Source: Candidatus Altarchaeales archaeon
GTDB lineage: Archaea; Altiarchaeota; Altiarchaeia; IMC4; SCGC-AAA252-I15
DNA: 17,899 nt
Assembly (NCBI GenBank): GCA_016867655.1
Contig: VGJA01000005.1
Location: forward strand, 1-17,899
Reading direction: 5' to 3'
How positions within the stretch are numbered: position 1 is the stretch's first letter; every line of letters starts with the position of its first letter. The notes beneath the pieces were generated by a model, which worked only from the letters and a program-made list of their open reading frames with translations, did no database searches and was not told the DNA's origin. Both the position numbers and the translations under genes were made by a program. Positions 1 to 11,702 of the stretch are shown piece after piece.

Positions 1-399
1 AAATTTGTTCAGTCTCCCTCCTGTCAGGGATTCCCTTCGGGGACCGTTTTCGGTCTTGAGTATTCGAAAAACTTTGGAAAACAGGAAACTGAAAACCGAA
101 AACCCGTGAAAACTGAAAACCGAGACGTAGTGCCTAACTTAGCAAAGTTCGACCGAATCATCATGCCTTTGCCTAAGGATGCGGGTGACTTCCTTGACAC
201 AGCATTGCCTGCCTTAAGCAAGAATGGTGTTGTCCATTTCTACGACTTTGCAGGGTCAACCAAAGAGTCCGAGAAGAAGGTCAAGAAAATCTGCAAGAAA
301 CTTGGATACAAAGTCAGAATGCTGGAATCAGTCTTGTGCGGCAGCTATGCTCCCGGCTTGCACAGGGTTTGCGTTGATTTTAAGGTTGTCGGGAAATAA
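1..399 (+). CDS. Trm5/TYW2-family tRNA methyltransferase, C-terminal part (5' end outside window)
   Basis: The frame is open from base 1 to the TAA at 397-399, so the start lies upstream of the window. The last ~90 residues match the catalytic C-terminus of archaeal class I SAM enzymes that modify G37 of tRNA or add the aminocarboxypropyl group in wyosine synthesis. Visible marks are KFDRIIMPLPKDAGDFL, which corresponds to the NLPxxA active-site motif with Pro at the Asn position; a beta strand VVHFYDF; and the closing block YAPGLHRVCVDF. Upstream of DVVPNLAKFD the reading frame runs through a low-complexity, hairpin-rich segment not expected in the SAM domain (separate entry). Without the N-terminus I cannot separate Trm5 (m1G37) from TYW2/Taw2. 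The next gene starts 2 bases after the stop, so the two are probably cotranscribed. Confidence 0.8.
   Translation, partial: KFVQSPSCQGFPSGTVFGLEYSKNFGKQETENRKPVKTENRDVVPNLAKFDRIIMPLPKDAGDFLDTALPALSKNGVVHFYDFAGSTKESEKKVKKICKKLGYKVRMLESVLCGSYAPGLHRVCVDFKVVGK
15..123 (+). repeat. In-frame insertion of tandem hairpins plus a 24-base tandem duplication inside the Trm5/TYW2 gene
   Basis: Three small hairpins follow each other: TCCCT 15-19 with AGGGA 26-30; TCCC 32-35 with GGGA 40-43 around TTCG; and GACCG 42-46 with CGGTC 51-55 around TTTT. After them AAACTGAAAACCGA occurs at 86-99 and again at 110-123, a 24-base (8-codon) period encoding two TENR units. The segment stays in frame and has no stop. 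The 5' limit of the insertion cannot be set because the window starts here. That it is an insertion is inferred from comparison with remembered family structure, where this stretch is a short loop before the strand leading to the DRI motif. Confidence 0.55.
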
Positions 400-710: not shown

Positions 711-815
711 TCGTGATTTCTATAATGTTGTAGTGCCTAAAGAACGGCATCTTGTGTCAATTAGAAGGTGTAGTTAATAAAGACTTTAAGGCAACATTCA
801 ATAAAACATCACGAC
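710..815. repeat. 106-base element bounded by imperfect inverted repeats
   Basis: Left arm GTCGTGAT (710-717) then ATGTTG (725-730). Right arm CAACAT (792-797) then ATCACGAC (808-815). The two pairs are perfectly complementary and separated by unpaired stretches of 7 and 10 bases. Between the arms lies a 62-base AT-rich core that contains TAGTGCCTAA (731-740), a word also found next to two in-gene insertions. It could be a transcript terminator/processing signal, a leader of the next gene, or a small non-autonomous mobile element. Confidence 0.5.
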
Positions 816-1599: not shown

Positions 1600-3003
1600 T
1601 TAATCCACCTCACCTAGTAAGTCATAATAAGTCGCCTTTTTTACAGTAACATTTACTATCTCTCCAAAAATATCCTTTCTTGTTTTTATTATGATTGGTT
1701 TATACCACAGGTTTCTTGCTGTGTAGCTTCCGTCCTTGTTTTTTTCCGAAACCAGTGCGCTGCCTTTCCAGCCAACCCATTTTTTGTTCTGATTTAAACC
1801 GATTTTTTTGAACAAGTCGTTCACCATTCCAGAGCGTTTTTTAATCAGCCAGCCCGGGTGTTGTTTTAATTCTGCAGCTTTTGTTCCGGGTCTGGGCCAG
1901 AATCTGGAGATGTTTATTATATCGGGTTTGACATCTTCAATCATGTTCAGAGTTTTCTTGAAGTCTTCTTCAGTTTCAGTTGGGTAGCCGACTATAATAT
2001 CCGTAGACAACGTAATCTGCGGGGTTGAACTTGGAGTCGCATGTTCCTGTTCATTCTGACAACCTTTTGTTGAAGTATAGCATGCGAGCGTAGCTAGTTT
2101 GAGGGGCTGGAGCGGAGCGGAATGCCCCTCCTTTGATGCACCTTTATTAAAGGTGCTTGTAGTGCCTAACTTTTCCCTGAACTCCCTCACAATCTCCCTG
2201 AAATCCTTTCCACAGTATCTCCTACCCATCTCCTTTAGAATCCTGTCGCTGCCAGCCTGCACTGGAAGATGCAGGAAGCGGTATAACTTCTCGTTTTTTA
2301 AAACTTCAACCAATTCTTCTGTAAAATCTAAAACATGGTTTGGATTCATCATTCCCACTCTCACTTTAAAATCTCCAGGAATTTTCACAATTTCATTCAG
2401 CAATTCCGGCAGGCTTGATTTTATGTCTTTCCCATAGGCGCCAGTGTCCTGTGCCGTAAGCCAGATTTCCCTAACGCCTTCAGCCAATGCAGACTTCACA
2501 TGGCTAACAATCTTCTCGCCTGCAAAAGACTTCAAGCTGCCTCTAGCAGCTTTCGTCAGGCAGTAGGAGCAGTTTCCAAGACAGCCCTCAGCTATCGGCA
2601 CAATTTCAACAAAAGGATTTAGCCTGTTTTTGGGCATGCAGACTTTCACACCAGGCGAGGCTATCAAAACAAATCTACTCCCTCTTCCTACAGTCTCAAC
2701 AGCTTCAACAACATCTTGCACATTGACTCCAATGAAAGAGAACCTTGGAAATTCGTCTGCAATCTGCCGGCATGCAGCAGGTAGGCATCCCGCAGCAATC
2801 ACATTCCTGTTTTGTTTGTCCAGCTCCTTAAGCCTTCTTCTAATCTTGTTTTCAGTCGGAGTCTTCACAGTGCAGGTGTTCACAACCAAAATTTCACCCT
2901 CTTTTTTTACAATCTTGTGGCCGTGTTTCTCCAACAGGCCTGCTATTATCTCCGAATCAGCTTGGTTCATGGCGCAGCCGTAGGTTTCTATTTCAACATT
3001 CAT
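1600..3003 (-). CDS. tRNA t6A37 methylthiotransferase, archaeal CDKAL1/MtaB type, with a 49-residue insertion
   Basis: Radical SAM enzyme that adds a methylthio group to t6A37 of tRNA, forming ms2t6A. The N-terminal UPF0004 domain begins VEIETYGCAMNQADSE and carries the auxiliary-cluster cysteines C10, C44 (VNTCTV) and C73 (AAGCLP). The radical SAM cluster is CLGNCSYC (C141, C145, C148). HLPVQAGSD and TDIIVGYPTETEEDF follow in the usual order, then a C-terminal TRAM-like region. The protein is 467 aa, long for the family, because residues 280-328 interrupt the normal REKL-QITLSTD junction. I place the start at the ATG at 3001-3003 rather than an upstream TTG, because a TATA box lies about 28 bases before it and MNVEIETYGC is the usual N-terminus. 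Confidence 0.9.
   Translation of the reverse strand: MNVEIETYGCAMNQADSEIIAGLLEKHGHKIVKKEGEILVVNTCTVKTPTENKIRRRLKELDKQNRNVIAAGCLPAACRQIADEFPRFSFIGVNVQDVVEAVETVGRGSRFVLIASPGVKVCMPKNRLNPFVEIVPIAEGCLGNCSYCLTKAARGSLKSFAGEKIVSHVKSALAEGVREIWLTAQDTGAYGKDIKSSLPELLNEIVKIPGDFKVRVGMMNPNHVLDFTEELVEVLKNEKLYRFLHLPVQAGSDRILKEMGRRYCGKDFREIVREFREKLGTTSTFNKGASKEGHSAPLQPLKLATLACYTSTKGCQNEQEHATPSSTPQITLSTDIIVGYPTETEEDFKKTLNMIEDVKPDIINISRFWPRPGTKAAELKQHPGWLIKKRSGMVNDLFKKIGLNQNKKWVGWKGSALVSEKNKDGSYTARNLWYKPIIIKTRKDIFGEIVNVTVKKATYYDLLGEVD
2020..2166 (-). repeat. 147-base in-frame hairpin insertion in the methylthiotransferase gene
   Basis: This segment encodes residues 280-328 and separates two pieces that are normally contiguous (REKL and QITLSTD). 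It contains GAGGGGC (2101-2107) pairing with GCCCCTC (2124-2130), and GCACCTTT (2138-2145) pairing perfectly with AAAGGTGC (2149-2156) over a 3-base loop that reads AAT on the coding strand. A weaker CAAC/GTTG pair lies at 2060-2072. The insert is a multiple of three, has no stop in the coding frame, and encodes a low-complexity peptide rich in Ser, Thr, Gln and Pro with two Cys. Confidence 0.7.
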
Positions 3004-3027
3004 GGAGGGTATATTTTTCAACTGTGG

Positions 3028-10385: not shown

Positions 10386-11702
10386 ATGACATCTGAGTAT
10401 TTAGACTTGAATTACAAGCCAACTAAAAACGACTTGAACTGTTTGTTTTACATTGAGCCTTCTAGAGGAGTTTCTTTTGAAAAAGCTGCAGAGCACGTTA
10501 CCGGCGAAAGCAGTATCGGCACTTGGACTGAAGTGCACACCGCATCCGGAAGTTCCATGAGAAAACTAAGGCCTAGCATCTATCACATGAACAAAAATAA
10601 GGGTTTGGTGAAGGTTGCCTATCCCTTGGAGTTGTTTGAGCCTGAAAATGTTTCTCAAATCATGAGCAGTATTGCAGGCAACATTTACGGCATGAAGGCG
10701 ATTCAAAATCTCAGATTGCTGGATTTCACTTTTCCCGAAAAGGCAGTCAAACTTTACCAGGGCCCGAAGTTCGGTATTCCCGGAATAAGAAAAATACTTA
10801 AAGTAAAGAACCGTCCTCTGGTGGGCACTATAATAAAGCCTAAAGTCGGTTTGCCTTACAAGGAGCATGCCAGAGTGGCCTTTGAAAGCTGGGTTGGCGG
10901 CTGCGACATAGTGAAAGATGATGAAAACCTGACTGACCAGAAGTTCAACCCCTTTGACAAAAGAATTGCTGAGACAATGCAGGCTTTAGACAAGGCAGAG
11001 CGAAAAACCGGTGAAGTGAAAATCTACATGCCCAACATAACAGCCGAAACAGAAGAAATGGTTGAAAGAATGGAATACGTCAAAAAACACAACGGAAAAT
11101 ACGTGATGATTGACGTTATCACATTGGGCTTCAGCGCAGTTCAAACAGTCTTGAAACACTCAAGAAAGATGAATCTTGTCGTGCACGCTCACCGGGCGAT
11201 GCATGCCGCACTGACAAGAAACAAAAAGCACGGAATAACAATGCTGGCTTTAGCCAAACTCTACCGTCTCATCGGCACAGACCAACTTCACGTGGGCACT
11301 GCAGTAGGCAAGATGGAAGGCCCGGCAAGGGAAGTAGCTTCAATAAGAGATGAAATAACACTGGACAGCGTGCCTGAATCTAAAGACAGATTAAGCCAGA
11401 AGTGGCATGGCTTGAAGCCTGTGTTTCCAGTCTGCTCCGGCGGCCTGCACGCAGGACACATCCCGGAACTGATGAAAATCATGGGCAAAAATATCGTAAT
11501 CCAAGCCGGCGGAGGCGTTCACGGCCACCCGGACGGCACGATAGCAGGCGCTAAAAGCGTCCGCCAGGCTGTTGATGCGGTAATGGCTGGTCCCCATAAT
11601 GGGGATGTCCCGCAATGCGGGACAAAAACATTGAAAGAATACGCCAGAACGCACAATGAGCTGAGAAAAGTCTTGGAGACTTTTGGAAGTTATAGTAGAT
11701 GA
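10386..11702 (+). CDS. rbcL: Ribulose-bisphosphate carboxylase, archaeal form III
   Basis: Carboxylates ribulose-1,5-bisphosphate to two 3-phosphoglycerates. In archaea form III normally works in AMP/nucleoside salvage with AMP phosphorylase and ribose-1,5-bisphosphate isomerase, neither of which is in the window. All active-site residues are visible: GTWTEV (E49), AGN (N99), TIIKPK (K151, K153), GGCDIVKDDEN with carbamylated K177 and metal ligands D179/E180, HAHR (H269, R270), QLHVGTAVGKMEG (H302, K309), CSGG (S351), QAGGG (375-377). It should be active. Length is 438 aa. An 11-residue segment, P403-T413, interrupts the C-terminal helix region and is encoded by two DNA hairpins. The last codons form one arm of a 15-bp inverted repeat shared with the convergent ABC gene. 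Confidence 0.95.
   Translation: MTSEYLDLNYKPTKNDLNCLFYIEPSRGVSFEKAAEHVTGESSIGTWTEVHTASGSSMRKLRPSIYHMNKNKGLVKVAYPLELFEPENVSQIMSSIAGNIYGMKAIQNLRLLDFTFPEKAVKLYQGPKFGIPGIRKILKVKNRPLVGTIIKPKVGLPYKEHARVAFESWVGGCDIVKDDENLTDQKFNPFDKRIAETMQALDKAERKTGEVKIYMPNITAETEEMVERMEYVKKHNGKYVMIDVITLGFSAVQTVLKHSRKMNLVVHAHRAMHAALTRNKKHGITMLALAKLYRLIGTDQLHVGTAVGKMEGPAREVASIRDEITLDSVPESKDRLSQKWHGLKPVFPVCSGGLHAGHIPELMKIMGKNIVIQAGGGVHGHPDGTIAGAKSVRQAVDAVMAGPHNGDVPQCGTKTLKEYARTHNELRKVLETFGSYSR
11591..11624 (+). repeat. Two-hairpin in-frame insertion near the RuBisCO C-terminus
   Basis: TCCCC (11591-11595) pairs with GGGGA (11601-11605) around ATAAT. Next to it TGTCCCGC (11606-11613) pairs with GCGGGACA (11617-11624) around AAT. 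The pair covers exactly the 11 codons PHNGDVPQCGT, which separate VMAG from KTLKEYARTH. The family normally runs straight from VMxG to a short SLxEYA sequence. The frame is kept. Confidence 0.7.

Follow-up and report, generated by a model that had tools for sequence, protein, structure and literature searches.

The distribution of a two-hairpin repeat suggests that mobile DNA wrote itself into an archaeal protein

Rickettsia is the best-known setting in which palindromic DNA has come to encode part of conserved proteins, and a gene of Candidatus Altarchaeales raises the question of whether an archaeon has a counterpart. The window analysed here, a stretch of 17,899 nt (contig VGJA01000005.1), belongs to a genome of 1.15 Mb in 215 contigs that is 79% complete. 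It contains a radical SAM methylthiotransferase gene in which a first-pass annotation had marked positions 2020-2166 as an in-frame, hairpin-bearing insertion. The gene and the parts of its insert are:

1600-3021, minus strand: MiaB-like-B (CDKAL1-type) tRNA methylthiotransferase gene (MtaB; TIGR01578) carrying the insert and probably starting at the ATG at 3003
2020-2166, minus strand: insert within the limits first given, 49 codons (about 48 net), absent from relatives and listed homologues
2159-2169, minus strand: 11-mer TTAGGCACTAC, which reads K-LGTT and marks the insert's left edge; the genome has 38 exact copies
2138-2156, minus strand: hairpin H1, GCACCTTT-AAT-AAAGGTGC, 8 bp, the repeated core (repeat search, covariation)
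2131-2137, minus strand: spacer ATCAAAG, the gap between H1 and H2 (signature copies)
2101-2130, minus strand: hairpin H2, GAGGGGC...GCCCCTC, 7 bp, sequence-diverse between copies (covariation)
2023-2100, minus strand: 3′ part of the insert, with no convincing copies in the same genome; contains the wide pair TCGCATG/CATGCGA

The encoded protein matches TIGR01578 at 447 bits (cut-off 314.7) in two stretches, the best of which ends at residue 282, and among the matches listed (120 of 7810 matching database proteins) its closest named homologues are from Candidatus Altiarchaeota. The ORF is open across the whole segment, which is in frame and free of stops. A homologue search gave a match in 54 of 61 genomes, the gene's own included, and 30 proteins (its own and those of 29 relatives) were aligned. 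The insert is present in none of the 29 relatives and in none of the 119 other listed homologues; it is thus not a segment that all homologues carry, and the open frame and the empty site in relatives together bear out the insertion. Its limits as residues 280-328 hold for a start at ATG 3003 and become 286-334 from the TTG at 3021. The 49 codons are stop-free as described, but they include the P of the downstream motif, and by alignment the net insert is 48 residues between FREKL and PQITLSTD, with a right edge that is uncertain by a few codons.

The residues at this site vary among homologues, and length changes therefore recur there: P0006 and P0008 have different extra residues followed by LGTTISTD, P0007 (78% identical) and P0034 read LGTTLSTD without an insert, and P0002 reads KLNTTISTD. 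LGTT, encoded here by the 11-mer, recurs beside the insert site in homologues at the protein level. In an AlphaFold2 model built from 49 aligned sequences (mean pLDDT 88.7, pTM 0.86), residues 282-325 have pLDDT below 50 and form the loop that joins helix 265-280 to strand 331-338, the simplest reading of which would be a tolerated disordered loop in an otherwise confident fold. The segment might reflect lineage-specific growth of a permissive helix-strand loop by slippage or drift, with hairpins arising by chance. The unrelated extra residues of P0006 and P0008 show that the loop tolerates changes of length, and folding of the insert is only mildly unusual, both as RNA (z -1.96, 7 of 200 shuffles as good) and as DNA (z -2.19, 5 of 200). 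Perfect stems of at least 8 bp are likewise not rare by chance, with nine rows in the window against 0-9 in five order-2 Markov simulations. Against loop growth, the first ~55 nt of the insert recur elsewhere with the same architecture and covarying stems, including at non-coding loci, which makes this explanation improbable and, as things stand, difficult to maintain for the H1-H2 part.

What places the MtaB hairpin above chance is the repetition of its palindrome, not its stem or fold statistics: the 15-nt ACCTTTAATAAAGGT has six exact copies in 1.15 Mb, where by our own arithmetic ~0.002 would be expected. Searched against its own genome, the first 46 nt of the insert gave short matches on contigs C6, C126, C30, C77 and C41, and the last ~80 nt gave weak matches only (E 0.5 or worse). 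The first ~55 nt form a dispersed repeat of H1, spacer ATCAAAn and H2, a unit that starts 2 nt 3′ of the 11-mer in MtaB; the wide 7-bp pair has its arms at 2037-2043 and 2081-2087. The 7-bp and perfect 8-bp stem-loops reported earlier are both real, as H2 and H1, but the idea of a single palindromic insert has to be revised, since only these first ~55 nt repeat and the unit consists of two hairpins with a fixed spacer, adjoined by a strict 11-bp word. The AAT loop that H1 was said to have in common with a RuBisCO hairpin is indeed found there (11606-11624), but it is no mark of a family because other H1 copies carry GCT or GAT loops.

A signature made of H1 and ATCAAA, ACCTTTRNTAAAGGTNNATCAAA, has seven copies in its own genome, one in G001 (same genus), four in G012 and one in G013 (another family), and none in 37 other genomes; its reversed control has none. 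The copies share H1 (8-bp stem, 3-nt loop) and ATCAAA plus one base; H2 comes directly after the spacer at 9 of the 13 places. Covariation of H1 was scored on nine rows for the 13 places, with C126 left out and six inner pairs fixed by the search pattern; the two outer pairs vary in both arms, 71 of 72 cells are paired and the score lies above all 500 shuffles, while two of five measures are unexceptional (88 and 33 of 500 shuffles). H2 was counted at 9 of 13 places with arms chosen by eye (C6, C30, C65 and C66, where the next hairpin starts elsewhere, were dropped). All seven of its pairs vary in both arms, 59 of 63 cells are paired compared with 19-51% in slid registers, and covariation is above all 500 shuffles, with one measure unexceptional (154 of 500). 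Base pairing has outlasted the changes in sequence, a pattern that suggests a folded strand or RNA as the form recognised.

On contig C126, H1 stands in frame inside a second, unrelated gene of 398 aa with no NCBIfam match, reading FEKLGTTYTFNKG compared with REKLGTTSTFNKG in MtaB; at this copy ATCAAA comes only after two further hairpins. Most of the other H1 copies lie outside genes. An Rfam scan of 12 element loci returned tRNAs only. At the G013 copy (L251, ~1499) the H1 stem begins where an Rfam-predicted tRNA (1388-1499) has its 3′ end, and the C65 copy (L017, ~1300) appears by eye to sit in a tRNA gene intron, where ARAGORN predicted no tRNA.

Flanking sequences repeat each other better than any shuffle, over 11-52 bp, in 7 of 14 H1 copies. 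The repeats measure 52 bp at C41, 22 bp at C30 (overlapping the start of a tRNA-Arg gene) and 41 bp at G012:C4, and those at C6 and three G012 copies, of 11-15 bp, contain the 11-mer or ten of its bases. At C41, C30, C6 and G012:C28, 2 nt separate the end of the left repeat from ACC, with which the 8-bp H1 stem begins; the element would accordingly have a well-defined left end, and its target duplications would vary in length. The other seven copies, namely those of C126, five further loci and MtaB, have no flanking repeat. As the MtaB copy has no second 11-mer and no other repeat around it, target duplication there is only putative.

The 11-mer itself has 38 copies in its own genome against ~0.5 expected, and none when reversed. 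It occurs in 24 of the 29 genomes of the phylum set and has at least five copies in 18, which fall in family f1 (6 of 8) and family f3 (12 of 13; 18 of 21 together); four f7 genomes have none or one, and an archaeon outside the phylum set, G032, has 16. Across 263 kb of its own genome there are 13 exact copies and three with one mismatch, and since 30 shuffled words average 3.2 there is no halo of decayed copies. Pairs less than 300 bp apart have the same orientation in 5 of 5 cases in its own genome and in 30 of 30 among the sites listed (147, ten relatives); among sites listed, pairs within 2.5 kb number 38 of the same and 10 of opposite orientation. G032, outside this count, has an opposite-orientation pair 165 bp apart. 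Within genes the word is read as LGTT or RHY forward and VVPN backward, its stop-free readings. In our own tally of 29 sites, 14 coding sites are forward and 6 reverse, with 9 left out as unclear or outside genes; a role at the RNA level was considered and is disfavoured, the 14:6 split fitting two forward and one reverse stop-free frames.

Both the MtaB and the C126 inserts begin just 3′ of TTAGGCACTAC, and at 4 of the 29 sites a perfect hairpin, in three cases H1, starts no more than 4 nt 3′ of the word, compared with 1% of random positions. Five of the 13 signature copies (C30, C41, C65, C66 and C77) have no adjacent 11-mer on either contig side by inspection, so the association is a preference at most. 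The word also stands in genes without a visible insert (diaminopimelate decarboxylase, an isochorismatase-like gene and two aminotransferases, named by eye). It is kept, as GGTTAGGCACTACATG, at one of four aligned orthologous sites in the fetched part of G001, and four word sites within 400 kb of that genome have no palindromic insert. Because it is exact, lacks a decay halo and stands in genes without a visible insert, the 11-mer seems to have a role of its own, of which the inserts make use.

Further copies in the window lie at 127-137 (minus strand), in a Trm5-like gene truncated at the contig edge, where a GGTTTTC-rich stretch comes after the word, and at 730-740 (minus strand), between genes. 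Other words are over-represented in the window plus the own-genome sample, AAACCCGTGAAAAC with 8 copies against 0.01 expected and CCCCTTCGGGGA with 7 against 0.02; stretches of the GAAAACCG type adjoin several 11-mers in that sample. Several f3 genomes have the 11-mer in inverted orientation on both sides of an OB-fold/SerB-like gene pair (named by eye).

Against 400 kb of G001, 166 reciprocal best pairs were compared and gave 16 own-side and 13 G001-side gaps of at least 8 residues, the latter all in pairs less than 50% identical. Clear own-side inserts, all in frame and open, are those of DapF, a 630-aa protein, RuBisCO and MtaB. The DapF insert spans 69 bp from 11-mer to 11-mer, where G001 has a single near-copy, TTAGGCGCTAC. 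That of the 630-aa protein spans 159 bp between two reverse 11-mer copies, the G001 pair being only 38% identical. These two are not an unbiased sample because their loci were fetched for holding the 11-mer. The RuBisCO insert is:

11592-11624, plus strand: two-palindrome in-frame insert of 33 bp in type III RuBisCO, absent from G001 (GGC|AAA there), with no adjoining 11-mer

A second RuBisCO difference from G001, of 24 bp, has no palindrome by eye. In IGPS (C17), LGTT and LNTT stand 25 residues apart and both align to one LETT of 6y88, a duplication visible against 6y88 and not against the top hit, 1vc4; its 11-mer is followed, after 2 nt, by the start of a 6-bp hairpin (GGGCTG-GAAT-CAGCCC). 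TrpE (C36) has extra residues after the 11-mer without a clean duplication, and Trm5, truncated by the contig edge where the window begins, appears replaced, not lengthened. A listing of inserts relative to G001 held 27 own-side and 35 G001-side entries, many of low complexity, of which two own-side and one G001-side (28 bp) were out of frame. One own-side entry (L138) lies between two separate genes and was rejected as a frame-breaking insert, and the other (L129) was judged spurious from its reading.

The repeat could also be a tyrosine-recombinase (integron-like) cassette, or an element of the REP/IS200 type that a Y1 transposase moves. GTTAGGC is similar to an integron core, hairpin elements are typical cargo of Y1 enzymes, and the co-orientation of the close 11-mer pairs in its own genome and ten relatives would suit either. 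However, the tyrosine recombinase PF00589 has no match in the element's own genome (G000), G001 or G013 and one in G012, and the Y1 transposase PF01797, present in 4 of 29 genomes, has none in any of these four, which like all the genomes compared are incomplete assemblies. The base before TTAGGC varies, and the C30 and C41 copies have no 11-mer, so that a cassette or element of this kind is very unlikely. Slightly less likely again is an archaeal intron removed by the splicing endonuclease, with the segment never present in the protein. Archaea do splice bulge-helix-bulge introns, and the G013 copy abuts a tRNA 3′ end, but no bulge-helix-bulge was found at in-frame excision points for lengths within 3 nt of the insert: MtaB is without the 4-bp central helix, DapF, the 630-aa gene and RuBisCO do no better than shuffles, and for IGPS 32 of 300 shuffles are as good. 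The inserts compared also keep the frame and have no stops, though frame-breaking ones would be harder to see. That the ribosome skips the segment, by translational bypassing between repeated take-off and landing sites, scarcely merits consideration, since for all the hairpins and the repeated edges in DapF, IGPS and the 630-aa protein, bypassing has no need of an insert that is open and in frame, as this one is, and MtaB has no repeated edge.

We therefore regard the MtaB segment as probably a small, non-autonomous palindromic element that has inserted itself and is translated; its mobility and selfishness are suggested by the distribution of its copies. Some activity would copy or move the H1-spacer-H2 unit, preferring TTAGGCACTAC-like targets; the hairpin pair would be inserted at staggered or re-copied breaks, often near an 11-mer, and insertion would often duplicate 11-52 bp of target, and the unit's left end would be the H1 stem. 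A further ~80 nt may have arrived with the unit or been added later. The mRNA would keep the insert, and the enzyme would tolerate it because of its place in the radical-SAM domain, where a putative disordered loop joins a helix to a strand. A more specific proposal is an Altiarchaeota insertion system, neither tyrosine-recombinase nor Y1, that reads hairpin pairs by shape (as ssDNA or RNA), writes beside or between exact copies of TTAGGCACTAC, duplicates its target and adds peptides to conserved enzymes; this is conceivable, and we put it forward tentatively as the less probable case.

Rickettsia palindromic elements are described as small palindromic repeats that occur at multiple sites, including in-frame positions within unrelated protein genes (PMC10969869). 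H1, in frame in the two unrelated genes for MtaB and the 398-aa protein, resembles their description in this respect. The likeness in principle proposed in the first-pass annotation is accordingly upheld in that a multi-copy palindromic element lies in frame in an unrelated protein gene, the site is empty in relatives and a splicing signal was not found; by this analogy the archaeal element would work like a Rickettsia palindromic element. It differs in its archaeal host, its two hairpins with a fixed spacer, the location of most copies outside genes, the long direct repeats around half of them and the 11-bp word beside several. A hairpin adjoined by a short tag-like word is shared with REP and GTAG-tagged palindromic repeats. 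Unlike in those repeats, no Y1 transposase was found in the element-bearing genomes, themselves incomplete, and the word is missing beside C30, C41, C65, C66 and C77. Like MITEs, the unit is short, non-coding, dispersed and apparently non-autonomous, but by inspection of the edges at C41, C30, C6 and G012:C28 it has no terminal inverted repeats (the left end is H1 and the right ends differ), and in place of a fixed short target duplication there are 11-52 bp in 7 of 14 copies. Integron cassettes (attC) likewise conserve fold more than sequence and have a core-like word, whereas the 11-mer forms direct repeats, not an inverted pair, and in the incomplete genomes no tyrosine recombinase was found in G000, G001 or G013, with one match in G012. 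As with DNA uptake sequences, the word is exact, over-represented and present in and between genes in both orientations; in contrast to them it has only 38 copies, forms direct-repeat clusters and in several copies borders inserts.

In the open-access literature, to which the search was confined with subscription papers outside its scope, no case of palindromic elements in archaeal protein genes was found, and TTAGGCACTAC was found in no open-access paper. If archaea do have a counterpart, with hairpins conserved in shape, long duplications of target and a strict 11-bp word, the phenomenon would have had more than one origin. The element and the word together would offer a signature for finding the mobilising factor, and the natural empty and filled sites a way to ask how enzymes absorb new segments.

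The two-hairpin element has no match in virus contigs, and AAGTTAGGCACTACA occurs there in 70 stretches, near chance by a rough estimate with the exception of one contig with many copies. IMGVR_UViG_3300009320_000030, a head-tailed virus contig (terminase, portal, major head and ParB-like proteins), carries TTAGGCACTAC 17 times in the 27.8 kb covered; the copies share one orientation, and several stand just before an ATG. Because the same word is dense and one-directional in this contig, host and virus may share a factor that recognises it. Close tandem 11-mers occur in 11 virus stretches, five in repetitive coding sequence and six outside ORFs of at least 70 aa; close direct repeats of the latter kind were seen in virus contigs L263, L264, L265, L267, L268 and L271.
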